Source: a virus
Length of the DNA stretch: 40,221 nt
IMG/VR virus record: IMGVR_UViG_3300028398_000009
Span: 1-40,221 of that record
Reading direction: 5' to 3' (one strand)
This document shows positions 19,206 to 40,221 of this stretch, piece after piece (the stretch's first letter is position 1; each line of letters starts with the position of its first letter). The position numbers were made by a program, and so were the translations under genes. The notes beneath the pieces are model-generated. The model was not told where the DNA came from and searched no databases. It saw nothing but the letters and a program-made list of their open reading frames with translations.

Positions 19206-21817
19206 TGAAAGACTCTTATCCAGTAGGTCAAGCACCTTGGGAAGTTAATACTAACTCTAACACTGATACTAAACCTGCTGACTCTTATCCAGTAGGTCAA
19301 GCACCTTGGGAAGTTAATACTAACTCTAGCACTGATACTAGTGCCCTAGATAAAATGCAACAACTAAATAGTAAACCTAGTGAGTTATCTGGTATTACTG
19401 ATTATAGTAATAGTGGTGAAGCTATAACTAATTCAGATGGAACTATAAGTACTACTCAAATAACTCCTGAAGCTGCTAATGCTCTAGAGCCTGGAGAGGT
19501 TACAGATAAAATTAATGCCAATTTAGTTGAGCCAGCTAAACAAGTTGTAGCAGGAGCTAGAACTATAACTGCTGGTGGTGCTAGAATAATTAATGATGCC
19601 TTAGCAGAAGCTGGATTACCTAATGAAAAGGGTATTACTGATAAAGCTGCAGAAACATTAAATAACTATATTGAAAAATATAATAATTCTCATCCTACTG
19701 CATTATTACATCCTAGTACATTAGGTAAACTAATGGCTTATACTGTATTACCCATAGGTGATGGCGCATTAGCAGGTGGTGCTAGTATTGGTGGTTATAG
19801 TTTCTTAGAATCTTTGGGTGAGAATAAGGACTATGGTGATGCTGCCTTAAATGGTATAGTAGGTGCTGCCCTTGGTGGAACATCTATAGCTGTAATAAAC
19901 AAAGCTGTTAATGCTTTAGGACTTAAAGAAATGCCTAAAGATGTTGAACTAATGTTAAACCTTAATAGAATGAGTAAAGGTGAAGCTTTAAAAGCACTTA
20001 AGGATATACCAAATAAAGACAGAGCACTTAGTCTTGCTGAGTCAGATGAGATGTTTAAGAACTATTTTAAAGCTACTATAGGTGATAGCTCAAAACTAGC
20101 TGCAGACTTAGATAAGCGTCTTCAGATGAGAAAAGATATATTTGAGCCTTTTACTGCTAATGCTCAAGATATGACTCAAGCTAAACAAACATTTACTAAT
20201 ATGAAATTAGAAGTGGATAAGGCTAGTCCTAATATGTATGATGCCTCTAGTATCTCAAATAAAATAGATGATAAACTTATTGATTTATATGCAACAGACC
20301 CATCTGGTATAGCTACCTCTCTTAAACAGATTAAGTTAGATACAGAAGGGACTATAACTCCTGGACAAGCTTTAGAGGTTAGAGAAAATATAAATGCTAT
20401 ATTAAGAAAACCTGCTATTAAAAAATCTTTTAAAGCTAGGGAAACTATAAATGAGGTTAAAGCTGAGGTAGATAGTTTTCTAGATAGGTCATTGCCTAAG
20501 GATCTTAAACAGCAAGTAGATACTGAAATATCTAAGTATAGAGAGACTATTAATAACTTCAAGTTTGGTGAAATTCTAGAGAAAAATACGAAAGGTAAAA
20601 ATGCAGTTAATTGGGAAGGTGTTATAAAGGATTTAGGGAAAGATGGTTTACACTCAGATAGTATAGACTTAGCATTACCGGTACTTAAAGAATTTACAAA
20701 GAAATTTGCTAATGATAAATTACTTGGTGAAGTAAGTAAACCTACAGGTAATAGCTCATCTGGTGGTTTACTTAGTGCTTGGAGTAAAGCTGTTAATACT
20801 ACATTAGATATCTTAAGCCCACTATATAATCGTAGTAGATATAAGGATATTCAAATAAGAAAAGCTATAGAGAGAAGTCTTAAGAATGCTGACCCTATGG
20901 ACCCTTTAAAATTTGTTGATGACTTAGTTAAAACTACTAGAGGTAAAATATCAAGAGCACAAGCTGAGAGAATTAAAACTGAGGTTGAGCCTCTTATGCT
21001 AGAGTATAAACCAGAAGCTAAAACAACAGGAGATGTAAATGCACAACCTTTATATGGAACCAAGTCAGGCACTGTTAGTACTAACCCTACTGATGCTGCT
21101 CTATATGATGCTCAAACTAACCTAGTTAGAGAAACTTTAGGTAAAGGTTATAGTGATAATGTTATTGAGGCAACTAATAAACTATTAAATAGTAAAAGGC
21201 TTGAACAATTAAGTAAAAGTATTAAAGCTCAGTTTGAAAAAGGTGAGCATACTAGGGCTTTGAATAGAATTAGGTCTGAGGTGGATAAAACTATACAAAG
21301 ATTACAAAAAGATTTAGGTGTCAAGTTGCCTAAGGTGGAAGTAGAGAAACTTTATAAGAATAAAATATTTGAATCTACTAACACTGGTGATAATATTAAA
21401 ACATTGTTTAAGAATGCTTATATAGATGATGGTGCATATAGACTTAACTATAATAATAAATTAGTAGACTTAGAGGATATTGATGGAATAGTTAGATTTG
21501 ATAATAGTTCTTTCAGTAAAGGTACCAGAAATGGTAAAAAATTCTACAATGAGTTATTTAATAGAGCTGAAGCTAATAACATAAAGGTAGGCCCATTAGG
21601 TCCATTAATTGGTGATGCTCAGTATAGATATCCTCTAGCTGTTATGCGTTATGCTAAAGCTGGTGGTAACATATCTAATATTACCTCTAGCTCATCTAAG
21701 TTTTCACCCATAAATTTGCAAATAGAAGCTCGGGATATACTTAGTAGGCTTAAGGCTGGTGAAAAACTAAATTTAAAACCAGAGGATATTAAACTTATAG
21801 AGGGTTATGCTAAATAG
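19205..21817 (+). CDS. Large internal virion protein with duplicated N-terminal PVGQAPWEV motif
   Basis: This 870-residue protein is probably ejected with the DNA or part of the inner core. The first 46 residues are an exact-looking 23-residue tandem duplication carrying SYPVGQAPWEVNTNS twice. Similar short Pro-Trp motifs occur at the start of other ejected phage proteins. A Gly/Ala-rich hydrophobic stretch at about 175-225 could insert in a membrane. The remainder is long, charged and helical, with no lysozyme or protease motif that I recognise. It starts with an overlap of the portal stop and ends tail to tail with the minus-strand helicase gene. Confidence 0.6.
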   Translation: MKDSYPVGQAPWEVNTNSNTDTKPADSYPVGQAPWEVNTNSSTDTSALDKMQQLNSKPSELSGITDYSNSGEAITNSDGTISTTQITPEAANALEPGEVTDKINANLVEPAKQVVAGARTITAGGARIINDALAEAGLPNEKGITDKAAETLNNYIEKYNNSHPTALLHPSTLGKLMAYTVLPIGDGALAGGASIGGYSFLESLGENKDYGDAALNGIVGAALGGTSIAVINKAVNALGLKEMPKDVELMLNLNRMSKGEALKALKDIPNKDRALSLAESDEMFKNYFKATIGDSSKLAADLDKRLQMRKDIFEPFTANAQDMTQAKQTFTNMKLEVDKASPNMYDASSISNKIDDKLIDLYATDPSGIATSLKQIKLDTEGTITPGQALEVRENINAILRKPAIKKSFKARETINEVKAEVDSFLDRSLPKDLKQQVDTEISKYRETINNFKFGEILEKNTKGKNAVNWEGVIKDLGKDGLHSDSIDLALPVLKEFTKKFANDKLLGEVSKPTGNSSSGGLLSAWSKAVNTTLDILSPLYNRSRYKDIQIRKAIERSLKNADPMDPLKFVDDLVKTTRGKISRAQAERIKTEVEPLMLEYKPEAKTTGDVNAQPLYGTKSGTVSTNPTDAALYDAQTNLVRETLGKGYSDNVIEATNKLLNSKRLEQLSKSIKAQFEKGEHTRALNRIRSEVDKTIQRLQKDLGVKLPKVEVEKLYKNKIFESTNTGDNIKTLFKNAYIDDGAYRLNYNNKLVDLEDIDGIVRFDNSSFSKGTRNGKKFYNELFNRAEANNIKVGPLGPLIGDAQYRYPLAVMRYAKAGGNISNITSSSSKFSPINLQIEARDILSRLKAGEKLNLKPEDIKLIEGYAK
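19211..19343 (+). repeat. 69-bp in-frame tandem duplication
   Basis: GACTCTTATCCAGTAGGTCA starts at 19211 and again at 19280, a period of 69 bases or 23 codons. The copies are nearly identical (Asn to Ser late in the unit), which implies a recent duplication or ongoing homogenisation. The reading frame is preserved. Confidence 0.9.
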
Positions 21818-35549: not shown

Positions 35550-37763
35550 TTATGAGAGGTCTATATCTTCTCCTTGCACTTCTTCAATTTCCTTGGGTGC
35601 ATTTAATATAGTTATGTATTTATACTTTCCAGAGTCAAATATAACCCTTTTATTATTATTAGTCCTAGCAACTATATTATCTACAGTTTTAGAAAGTATA
35701 TATGATGCACCAGATGCTTTTAATTTATCTTGTAGGCTCTTAGCATTAACTAAGTAGTCATTCGACTTGTTATACTTGTACTCTATATCTGCTGGAGAGA
35801 GCTGGAACATCTCTAATACCTTACTATATGTCTCATATCTCTGGTCTTTATATAATAAGTTAGAAGCTGTGTCGGATTTGTCTGAAGTAGCTTCAATGTA
35901 TGTGAGATATGACTGCGACTTCTGTCGTGAGTAGGCACTACTATATTCCTCTCTAGTTATAGTTATAGTACACTCATTCCCTAACCAATAGTAGAAGTCG
36001 AGTAGTGAAGCCTCAGACATTAAAGCATCAAGGTCACTCTTGTCATAATTACCACCTCTTAGTTTCTCTAGTGGCATTGGCATATAAACAGTATGTATTC
36101 TACGTGACGAGTTAATATCAGTGTGGAGCTTAGCCCAATTATTACCAGTAACCCATATCTTAATTATACTCTGCACTGTTGTTGCTGTCTGCTGCATTCC
36201 ACGATATGTTACTATACCATTAGAGCCTGATATAGTCTTAAGCCTCTCTAGCATATCATCTTGTTCTGCAAATTTCCACTCACCAACCTCTGAAAATATT
36301 ACATTCTCTTTAGTTTGCCAATTAGAGTGCTTATCCTTCATTAGAGTGTAGTCGAGGCTTTGCGCTGGCTCTGAGAACCCCTTAGTCATTATATTTATAG
36401 AGAGGTCTTTACCTGTGCCTTCCTCCCCAACTATATGCGTAACTACTGGTGTGTACTCAAATGTTGAATATCTATACTTCATAGCACCTATAAGATACTC
36501 ATACTCATCACCCCACATATACTCTAAAAGCTCTATAAATTCTTCTGGCGTAGTATATGTGTCAGGCTTAGCACCATTAAATGCTTGTAGGTAACGATTA
36601 TGTATCGCTATATTAAACTTATTGTCATTATAACCATAGTCCTTAGAGTAGTCACTATATATAGATACCGTTTTTATCCTAGTAGTATCTCTACGTAATT
36701 GTTCTGGGCGTACTCTAGTTATCTTCTCCATTAGCTCTATATAAGCCGACTTATTCTTTAAGTGGTGAAGCATTTGTTGTGCTCTACTATTTTTATACGA
36801 GACTAAATATTCCCCAGTATCAGCATCATAAAAAACTTCTATCGGTGTCTTAGTCTCCTTGTGTGTTACTATATATGTTACCTGCTTAGCTACTGCATCA
36901 GGGTCATATCTCCATAGTCCATTAGTGTTGTTTAGCATTCTCTGAATGTGCTCCGAGTGTAGTTCCGCCTGAGTCTTCCTACCTGTATAGTGGTTATACT
37001 TCTCCATTGTAGCTATATAGTCCTCGTGACTAATCGTTAAGTCTGAAGCTAGGCGAGTGCTTAAGCGCTTATATACCTCATTTGATTGTTGAGGTGGTAT
37101 AGGGTCTGGCAAGCTATAGAACTCATTAAACTGCACCTGTGTTATTAAGTTCGCTAAGTACTCCTTAATCAGTGAGGCTGCATTGTCTGAGTTCCTTTCT
37201 AGTGGAGACAGTGCTATTACCCTAGCATTCTTAGGGAGTGAGTTAATAACTATATTTGATATTAGAGTGTTTATAGCAGTGTTGTATGGTGTTAGAGTGT
37301 AAGTATCAGAGTGATATAGCACCTCTTTACCTGTCTCTGCTAGCGTTGGTGCAATAACATTATGAGCTGGTCCACTAAGTATGTCTAGTGTAGACTGTTT
37401 AGTGTGTTGTGCTGGTAGCTGGATTTCTTTATTCTCTAAGTAGTAGAAGTGTCCACCCTTCCTTAAACTCTTAACTATATATGCACACTGATATTGTTGT
37501 TGTAGCTGTGAGTTATATCTTAGTGCCTCCTCGAAACTATCATCTGTGTCGAAGTCTATTATAGTGAGGCCTGTAGTTGGTACTATATACACTGTGTCTA
37601 ATGTAGATAGTCTGTCGAGCGTTATAGTGCTCTGATTTTCTATAGAACTCCACTTTACTTTCTTGTAGTATTGGCTTAGCTGTTTCTTGGTTTCTGGTGT
37701 TACCTTAAAGTCCTTAGGTGTGTTAAGTGATACTATTTGTATGCTTGTACTAGTACTAGTCAT
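35550..37763 (-). CDS. PrimPol-SF3 helicase fusion (replication initiator)
   Basis: This 737-residue protein combines priming and unwinding. The N-terminal PrimPol domain has the DxD site in GLTIIDFDTDD (D70, D72), KGGHFYY with H105, and LDILSGP with D127. After a linker region (about 200-400), the SF3/D5-like ATPase has Walker A GEEGTGKD (446-453), NVIFSEVGEW (487-496), sensor TGNNW (539-543) and arginines 554-555. Such proteins often bind and open the origin. The gap upstream, holding the GTCTT array, is only one small gene away. Codon use includes more GTGT and CTCT runs than its neighbours. Confidence 0.88.
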   Translation of the reverse strand: MTSTSTSIQIVSLNTPKDFKVTPETKKQLSQYYKKVKWSSIENQSTITLDRLSTLDTVYIVPTTGLTIIDFDTDDSFEEALRYNSQLQQQYQCAYIVKSLRKGGHFYYLENKEIQLPAQHTKQSTLDILSGPAHNVIAPTLAETGKEVLYHSDTYTLTPYNTAINTLISNIVINSLPKNARVIALSPLERNSDNAASLIKEYLANLITQVQFNEFYSLPDPIPPQQSNEVYKRLSTRLASDLTISHEDYIATMEKYNHYTGRKTQAELHSEHIQRMLNNTNGLWRYDPDAVAKQVTYIVTHKETKTPIEVFYDADTGEYLVSYKNSRAQQMLHHLKNKSAYIELMEKITRVRPEQLRRDTTRIKTVSIYSDYSKDYGYNDNKFNIAIHNRYLQAFNGAKPDTYTTPEEFIELLEYMWGDEYEYLIGAMKYRYSTFEYTPVVTHIVGEEGTGKDLSINIMTKGFSEPAQSLDYTLMKDKHSNWQTKENVIFSEVGEWKFAEQDDMLERLKTISGSNGIVTYRGMQQTATTVQSIIKIWVTGNNWAKLHTDINSSRRIHTVYMPMPLEKLRGGNYDKSDLDALMSEASLLDFYYWLGNECTITITREEYSSAYSRQKSQSYLTYIEATSDKSDTASNLLYKDQRYETYSKVLEMFQLSPADIEYKYNKSNDYLVNAKSLQDKLKASGASYILSKTVDNIVARTNNNKRVIFDSGKYKYITILNAPKEIEEVQGEDIDLS

Positions 37764-37977
37764 TAGTGGACTCCTTAATTGTGCTAGCTATTGCTAGTAT
37801 AAGAGGCTTTAAATTACTTAGAATTGAGCCACTGTTGATATTGAGCCGTCGCTGTACTATATGTTGTTTATAGTCTCTAAGGTCGTTAGCTATCTCGGGT
37901 GCAAAGGTAACTATATGTTCCCAGTAGAGTGGGTCCTTGTTCGTTTTAATATACTCTAGCCATTGTTCGTATGTCAT
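37756..37977 (-). CDS. Small hypothetical protein before the primase
   Basis: This 73-residue protein overlaps the primase start by 8 bases. It begins MTYEQWLEYIKTNKDPLYWE and is mostly helical, with a hydrophobic C-terminal helix. It is the first gene downstream of the repeat-rich putative origin and has AAAGGA as ribosome site. A replication accessory or regulator is plausible from context only. Confidence 0.55.
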   Translation of the reverse strand: MTYEQWLEYIKTNKDPLYWEHIVTFAPEIANDLRDYKQHIVQRRLNINSGSILSNLKPLILAIASTIKESTND

Positions 37978-38007
37978 TATATTCCTTTAATTGGGTATAC
38001 GTTTGTT

Positions 38008-38030
38008 TATGTATTATATCATATTATTTA
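38008..38030 (-). promoter_or_regulatory. Promoter for the primase operon
   Basis: Minus-strand TATAAT lies at + 38013-38018 in an all-AT context, about 35 bases before the small gene that leads the primase operon. No -35 box is visible. The GTC array lies just upstream of it, so initiator binding could also control this promoter. Confidence 0.5.
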
Positions 38031-38079
38031 TTAAAAATATATTAAAATTTTATATTAATTTTTTAATTTATGTGAGATT

Positions 38080-38361
38080 GCTAGTCTTATTAGTCTTTTG
38101 GGAGAATTCGCTTGTCTTATCTGTCTTTTGGGAGAATTCGCTTGTCTTTCCTGTCAAATTGGTCTTATTAGTCCTTAAAACAGTTTAGTTGTGCTGCGAT
38201 ATGCCCGAAAAGACTGAGGACAGAAGACGGGAGCTCTTTATGTAAGGGAAAGTGGTTCAACTGTGTAGTCTCGGTTAGCTTATTAGTCTTTTGTGTCTTT
38301 TGTGTCTTTTATATAATTTTATATTGTCCTTTTAGTCTTTTTTGTCCTATTAGTCTTATTA
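38080..38361 (+). repeat. Phased GTC(T/C)T iteron array
   Basis: GTC-led units start at 38084, 38093, 38114, 38123, 38144, 38153, 38162, 38171, then 38268, 38286, 38295, 38304, 38326, 38335, 38344 and 38353. Most steps are 9 bases (or 18); the larger steps are 21 and 22, about two helical turns. The first cluster also has a 30-bp higher-order repeat ending GGGAGAATTC. Between the clusters, 38208-38230 holds three GTC units in opposite orientation at 7-base steps. The consensus is close to GTCTTATTA or GTCTTTTGT. Confidence 0.85.
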
Positions 38362-38416
38362 TATTTATTTATATTTAAAATAGATAATAAAAAATAACAA
38401 AATAGAACAAGTGCGA

Positions 38417-38513
38417 GGTAAACTATAGTTAGCGATTGGTAACCAATTCTAGCACAATCAATACCAATACCACTAGTAACCATACGCAGTGATAGCTAAA
38501 ACTATAGTTAACC
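38417..38513. repeat. Inverted repeat pair with central palindrome
   Basis: GGTAAACTATAGTTAGC (38417-38433) is mirrored by GCTAAAACTATAGTTAACC (38495-38513). Both contain the 10-bp palindrome AACTATAGTT. Between them lies ATTGGTAACCAAT (38435-38447), another near-palindrome, and two CCAATACC units. The symmetric sites look like binding sites for dimeric proteins beside the GTC array. Confidence 0.6.
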
Positions 38514-38538
38514 TATTGCTAATAGTGAAAAGATTATA

Positions 38539-39878: not shown

Positions 39879-40052
39879 CGAATACCATAGATTGGCTTAA
39901 AGTTTAATATGATATTGAAATTAATTATTATATCTAAGATTATTTTAAGTATTTAGAGTAGGGTACGAATACCATAGATTGGCTTAAAGTTTAATATGAT
40001 ATTGAAATTAATTATTATATCTAAGATTATTTTAAGTATTTAGAGTAGGGTA
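39879..40052. repeat. 87-bp tandem duplication
   Basis: The unit starting CGAATACCATAGATTGGC begins at 39879 and again at 39966; both copies look identical over 87 bases and end GAGTAGGGTA. A third CGAA follows at 40053 before divergence. It contains no gene. Exact identity implies recent origin, an assembly duplication, or conserved function near the end. Confidence 0.9.
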
Positions 40053-40086
40053 CGAAGAGTAGTATGGATTAGTGACCGGCTTCTTA

Positions 40087-40221
40087 GGGACCCTCCCCCC
40101 CCCCCATGCAAGATACTTGGGTGCCAGTGTTAGCGATATATGGCCAGCAGAAACCAGACCAATTTTAAAACATCTTCACAATTCAACTAAGTTAATAAGT
40201 ATGGCCAGCAGAAACCAGACC
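40087..40221. repeat. Right copy of the terminal direct repeat
   Basis: Matches bases 1-134 except for one extra C in the poly(C) run. It stops inside the second unit of the 61-bp tandem repeat, a place where assemblers often break. If the copy is an overlap, the unique genome is about 40,086 bases. Confidence 0.9.

Follow-up and report, generated by a model that had tools for sequence, protein, structure and literature searches.

Our analysis indicates that a noncoding array of short GTC-led repeats in the window (the whole 40,221-nt stretch of viral DNA analyzed here, IMG/VR record IMGVR_UViG_3300028398_000009) is probably where the phage starts to replicate, an origin built of short iterons in inverted arms and loaded by a PrimPol-SF3 initiator. 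A candidate origin carrying initiator sites, which the initial annotation had put forward, was the best explanation of the array, and its arm layout and ~9-bp pitch recur in relatives.

Architecture of the array

The window is a podovirus genome of ~40 kb, with late genes running rightward from 0.3 kb and early genes running leftward from 39.6 kb. Within a 560-bp noncoding gap (37978-38538) lie 16 units beginning with GTC, together with a trio in inverted orientation. On the + strand, the first eight GTC starts are at 38084, 38093, 38114, 38123, 38144, 38153, 38162 and 38171, and the last eight are at 38268, 38286, 38295, 38304, 38326, 38335, 38344 and 38353, so that the spacings are 9, 21, 9, 21, 9, 9, 9, 97, 18, 9, 9, 22, 9, 9 and 9 in order. 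These positions and spacings agreed with the initial annotation, as did the 7-base steps of the trio (GAC at 38212, 38219 and 38226; steps 7, 7). Its label of a GTC(T/C)T array was slightly too broad, since 14 of the 16 fit and the units at 38153 and 38268 read GTCAA and GTCTC, respectively. It had also placed the trio simply in the middle, and missed that the trio makes up one of the two opposed arms. The essential layout consists of an inverted arm (AAGAC x3), a core of 49-69 bp and an opposing arm (GTCTT x7), to which a direct block is added (Table 1). The array is bordered by AT-rich DNA at either end, and a single small gene stands between it and the PrimPol-SF3 gene, in agreement with the initial annotation; the AT-rich DNA lies outside both arms, and the core of the window is not itself AT-rich.

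Table 1. Coordinates of the array, its flanks and the adjoining genes in the window
Feature	Position	Strand	Remarks
737-aa PrimPol-SF3 replication protein, proposed initiator binding the units	35550..37763	-	Identified by sequence profile and fold
73-aa protein between array and PrimPol, alternative binder	37756..37977	-	No family match
AT-rich block	38012..38047		No more than one of 36 bases varies among the three closest genomes; possible unwinding element
TATAAT, -10-like element for the leftward 73-aa/PrimPol genes	38018-38013	-	Inside the AT-rich block 38012..38047
Extra direct block, 8 GTC units (38084 to 38171)	38084..38175	+	Unit number differs among the two close relatives
PrimPol-proximal arm, inverted (AAGAC, AGGAC, AAGAC)	38210..38228	-	7-bp steps; 7, 7 in L139 and 9, 7 in L140
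Core separating the two arms	38229..38285		Includes the conserved segment 38233-38265
Distal arm, 7 GTCYT units (38286 to 38353)	38286..38357	+	Spacing 9, 9, 22, 9, 9, 9 in each of the three genomes; another GTC lies at 38268
AT-rich flank	38358..38410		Shared by the three closest genomes; may be an unwinding element

The 9-bp register and the inverted trio are far above chance. In 2000 dinucleotide shuffles, exact 9-bp GTC pairs averaged 0.05 with a maximum of 2, compared with 10 observed, and GTC counts averaged 4.4 with a maximum of 11, compared with 16 observed. The array holds 14 GTCYT motifs in 282 bp, against at most 3 per 282 bp elsewhere in the window, and all eight of the 9-bp GTCYT pairs of the whole window fall inside it. 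All six reading frames are interrupted by stops in the window and in two close relatives, indicating that the array is noncoding. RNA folds of its central part were not better than shuffles on either strand, and an Rfam RSV_RNA match, which scored 21 bits where the gathering score is 105, was judged to be due to chance. The GC skew of the window is confounded by gene direction and does not decide the question of an origin.

Several other repeats were observed in the window. Positions 1-133 and about 40085-40221 repeat each other except for the length of a C run, and the contig is therefore circular or circularly permuted. Noncoding DNA ahead of the terminase genes contains a 61-bp repeat in 2.5 copies (52-203) and a perfect 87-bp repeat in two copies (39879-40056), and a nearly perfect 69-bp tandem repeat (19211-19340) lies at the start of an 870-aa gene.

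Recurrence of the layout in related podoviruses

The same array was found at the same place in two close relatives, IMGVR_UViG_3300023439_000002 (L001/L140) and IMGVR_UViG_3300026510_000012 (L124/L139), whose PrimPols are 88-91% identical to that of the window; the major capsid protein (MCP), compared for one of the two, is 84% identical. TerL and the array are contiguous in L140. The spacing of the right block was unchanged in all three genomes although its 4-nt spacers vary, and these spacers change in concert, being mostly ATTA in L140 and ATTT in L139. Identical columns among the three genomes made up 58 of 70 within GTCYT units and 163 of 270 outside them. Also conserved in these genomes were the two AT-rich flanks and a 33-bp core segment, GCTCTTTAYGTAAGGGAAWGTGRTTSAACTGYG (38233-38265), which was absent from every other viral contig searched. 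A pattern scan of IMG/VR for four GTCTT on a 9-bp step returned mostly Asp/Glu-rich or other repetitive coding sequence and no relatives, and a 9-bp repeat in L146 was set aside because it reads as a Cys-rich coding repeat.

Distant relatives, with PrimPols ~20% identical or less to that of the window, were gathered by an MCP search. Many of them have an AT-rich noncoding region between PrimPol and TerL, in which a motif of their own is repeated in opposing arms around a core. Altogether, this arm-core-arm layout, with a virus-specific motif of 5-7 bp and a pitch of 8-10 bp, was found in ~22 further podoviruses of the KF-1/VPMS1/Amaethon family, one array per genome. GTCTT is replaced in these viruses by AGTAG (L189, AGTAG x3/CTACT x6), GAGTC (L201, GAGTC x4/GACTC x6), TATTC (L197, TATTC x6/GAATA x7), ATACA (L200, ATACA x3/TGTAT x6), CAATA (L202, CAATA x3/TATTG x5) or AAATCC. 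For the 5-mers, the gap from the last unit of one arm to the first unit of the other was 49-69 bp in the best cases, and the core is AT-rich in L202, L201 and L189, unlike that of the window. Cultured KF-1, Amaethon and VPMS1 also have the layout, with the array several kb 5' of PrimPol, at 3.4-3.6 kb in KF-1, 4.5-4.6 kb in Amaethon and 42.2 kb in VPMS1.

A broad scan for exact 6-mers with at least two units per arm identified 30 loci in ~22 viruses and had no matches in block shuffles or in 1.07 Mb of other viral contigs; these contigs had been picked by GTC-repeat pattern and are unmatched in base composition. The internal control of a strict scan is the better one. The strict scan covered 44 genomes and gave 16 matches, every one within the TerL-PrimPol interval, and none in the remaining 628 kb of these genomes. 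No matches were obtained at pitches of 5-7 or 11-16, and three were obtained at the double pitch of 17-19, in viruses also matched at 8-10. Hence, conservation of the 9-bp spacing in relatives, which had been suggested as a check on the array, was borne out as a ~9-bp pitch across the PrimPol-TerL arrays. The 28 genomes without a strict match, PH1 included, may have diverged motifs or a different arrangement. The 7-bp steps of its inverted arm meant that the window itself was recognized only via L139 and L140.

Noncoding arrays of another kind, with an 8-bp pitch, immediately follow TerL where the early genes begin in PH1 (L132, 23110-23450, e.g. AGACGTCC), L152 (2700-3090), L174 (3730-3890), L221 (1-170), L225 (1110-1260) and L216 (1-110). 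L171 appears to carry both this kind and an inverted-arm array, and the two are therefore kept apart. Short tandem repeats closer to TerL were also observed in the window-like viruses L199 (5990-6080, GGACAGCTA x10), L197 (7086-7180, TATTC-type 18-mers), L195 (5380-5570, 21-mers) and L204 (6611-6894, CTAACA x13).

The candidate initiator and comparison with known origins

On the basis of its sequence and a structural model, the 737-aa protein is assigned as a PrimPol-SF3 protein with NrS-1 polymerase as its nearest relative. It has the AEP aspartates, Walker A motif and arginine pair common to phage 'DNA polymerase/primase' proteins; D70, D72, D127, K452 of Walker A and R555 are invariant among 48 proteins, and R554 is nearly so. 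No Pfam family matched it above the cut-off, and a profile of the PrimPol family matched only NrS-1 polymerase in the PDB (6k9e, E 3e-16). AlphaFold reached a pLDDT of 71 with the 48-sequence alignment, compared with 34 from the single sequence. The best fold matches of the model were the NrS-1 C-terminal region, followed by poxvirus E5, AsfvPrimPol and the PriRep1 initiator. Confidence in the model is moderate, and domain edges are therefore uncertain; the C-terminal domain, a likely site of origin binding, was modeled at low confidence.

Across 171 virus pairs, and with both proteins considered together, motif sharing increased as the PrimPols became more alike but showed no such trend for TerL. 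Because the motifs were chosen by eye and the pairs are not independent, this correlation counts as support, not proof, for PrimPol as the protein that probably reads the units. Within the window clade (e.g. L189, L192, L197, L201, L202, L204 and L220), PrimPols are ~20% identical or less to that of the window although capsid identities are mostly 68-78% (about 50% in L220), and this divergence suggests that whole replication modules have been exchanged among these phages. The 73-aa protein resembles, by eye, an L201 protein that has a helix-turn-helix-like stretch. Viruses differ in which small gene they have at this place, and its product is thus a weaker candidate binder than PrimPol.

Previously, PICI origins were shown to contain two iteron sets flanking an AT-rich melting region, a layout that, according to that study, no other known bacterial replicon has, and the rep-ori replicon of the EcCICFT073 PICI was active in plasmid tests (PMC6092414). 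Reading the EcCICFT073 origin directly, we found TCTACC/GGTAGA 11 times in opposing sets, with spacings of 9, 46, 22, 11, 9, 31, 11, 22, 46 and 9. DUF5906 is present both in its PriRep and in five PrimPols of the window clade, and the PriRep aligns to the phage PrimPol profile across the helicase core. In SaPIs, two hexamers of Rep appear to bind the iterons (PMC7581432). PICIs and SaPIs thus resemble the window in having two opposed sets of short, element-specific iterons (in EcCICFT073, a motif of 5-6 bp at steps of 9/11 bp), and in PICIs the adjoining gene encodes a D5/SF3-type initiator with DUF5906. However, the PICI origin lies directly 3' of rep, whereas the array lies 5' of PrimPol and one small gene away, and a PICI is a satellite, whereas the window is a whole podovirus genome in which no satellite genes were seen, and its array has a longer core plus an additional direct block. 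In view of the PICI origins and the EcCICFT073 layout, the array is best read as a variant of an established kind of origin and not as the new type initially suggested. Its setting is new, 5' instead of 3' of the proposed initiator and with a direct block added.

Other initiators share single features with this proposed system. SV40 T antigen and papillomavirus E1 are SF3 initiators that recognize short sites in opposed orientation and load a pair of hexamers, but their origins have far fewer sites and these proteins have an N-terminal origin-binding domain and no PrimPol. SCCmec Cch2 is a self-loading D5-type helicase that requires the 5-nt iteron AAGTG and may bind as two hexamers (PMC7581432); it differs in having only three direct iterons, in needing no opposed arms for binding and in working with a separate primase, CCPol-MP. 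NrS-1 PrimPol (NrSPol), the nearest solved relative of the window PrimPol by profile and fold, likewise combines PrimPol with an SF3 helicase, but has two 8-nt recognition sites in mid-genome, and an array was not described (PMC7102993). The ORF904 protein of pRN1 is also PrimPol-SF3, and phage P4 alpha, like the proposed window initiator, is a single protein that binds the repeats of its origin, ori/crr, and also unwinds and primes (PMC4234260). Alpha has a TOPRIM-type primase, and pRN1 has a single perfect stem-loop 3' of the gene and no iterons. A classical RepA/Rep_3 iteron origin was rejected, as it would be expected to have iterons of ~17-22 bp and a Rep of those families, in contrast to units repeating every 9 bp next to a PrimPol-SF3 gene.

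Alternative explanations and proposed mechanism

The array might instead be an operator, at which a small phage DNA-binding protein (e.g. the 73-aa protein) covers the units and thereby regulates the leftward 73-aa/PrimPol promoter, with no need for origin function. In the window, and in six of the seven relatives examined, a -10-like element separates the array from the operon (the match in L201 was weak and was set aside), small genes, several of them helix-turn-helix-like by eye, often precede PrimPol, and pRN1 has a repressor gene paired with its PrimPol gene (PMC4234260). However, the layout is constant although the small gene is not the same across viruses, the distance to PrimPol in KF-1, Amaethon and VPMS1 is several kb, and opposed arms at a fairly fixed gap exceed the needs of an operator, so that we consider this explanation unlikely. 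The -10-like element nevertheless means that autoregulation may accompany origin function. It is quite improbable that the arms pair into a stem-loop or cruciform recognized by the initiator, as proposed for pRN1 (21-nt stem, 58-nt loop). The array and the pRN1 stem-loop are similar in dimensions, both being inverted elements of ~100 bp (PMC4234260), and DNA folds exceeded shuffles in L202 (z -9.6), L201 (-7.5), L139 (-5.6, for a different segment) and L199 (-4.6). Yet inverted repeats of a single motif fold for free, the fold is weak in the window (z -1.7) and missing in L204 (z 0), and the window arms, with steps of 7 and 9, cannot pair in register.

Primase start sites, with synthesis beginning at template GTC as by the T7 primase, had also been suggested initially. 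NrS-1 polymerase uses TTTGGTTA and GTG-type sites (PMC8718748), and preferred starts of CCPol-MP, the SCCmec primase, map to a putative origin, centered on a direct repeat (PMC7581432). Since relatives keep the geometry and exchange GTCTT for other motifs, the T7-like idea was not supported; furthermore, priming needs neither a fixed pitch nor opposed arms, and GTC and GTCYT are found along the whole genome too. Priming at the units may be a second role, and we regard it as highly improbable as the explanation of the array. Finally, the array could be a packaging (pac) or partition site for the small terminase or a centromere-binding protein; in favor of this are its position toward the terminase side and the clustering of other repeats around TerL. 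Several genes separate array and terminase in the window clade, motif sharing does not track TerL, and no partition genes were seen among the genes examined; this possibility therefore appears extremely remote.

The replication origin thus remains our preferred reading, and we propose the following mechanism. Subunits of the 737-aa PrimPol-SF3 protein would bind the ~5-bp GTCTT units at ~9-bp pitch and form two oppositely oriented sets, one on the AAGAC arm and one on the GTCTT arm, flanking the ~60-bp core. The bound sets would melt the core or the adjoining AT-rich DNA, and two opposing helicase rings would be loaded, making replication bidirectional. The PrimPol domain would then make the first primers, and the forks would be extended by the phage family-A polymerase and a Dda-like helicase.

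In the literature that we searched, no origin has been mapped for podoviruses with this PrimPol-SF3 replication, and the array marks a single site that can be tested in about 25 viruses, the cultured phages KF-1, VPMS1 and Amaethon among them. More tentatively, and with some doubt on our part, these viruses could represent a tailed-phage family with an exchangeable PrimPol-origin module, in which the motif diversifies fast while the ~9 bp pitch and the arm-core-arm geometry stay fixed. The occurrence of a PICI-like layout in phages bears on the source of PICI replicons, and the many motifs on one geometry provide a natural series for how SF3 initiators read DNA. If such a module exists, this geometry, with one unit per helicase subunit and two opposing arms, would be a conserved code for loading two PrimPol-SF3 rings.
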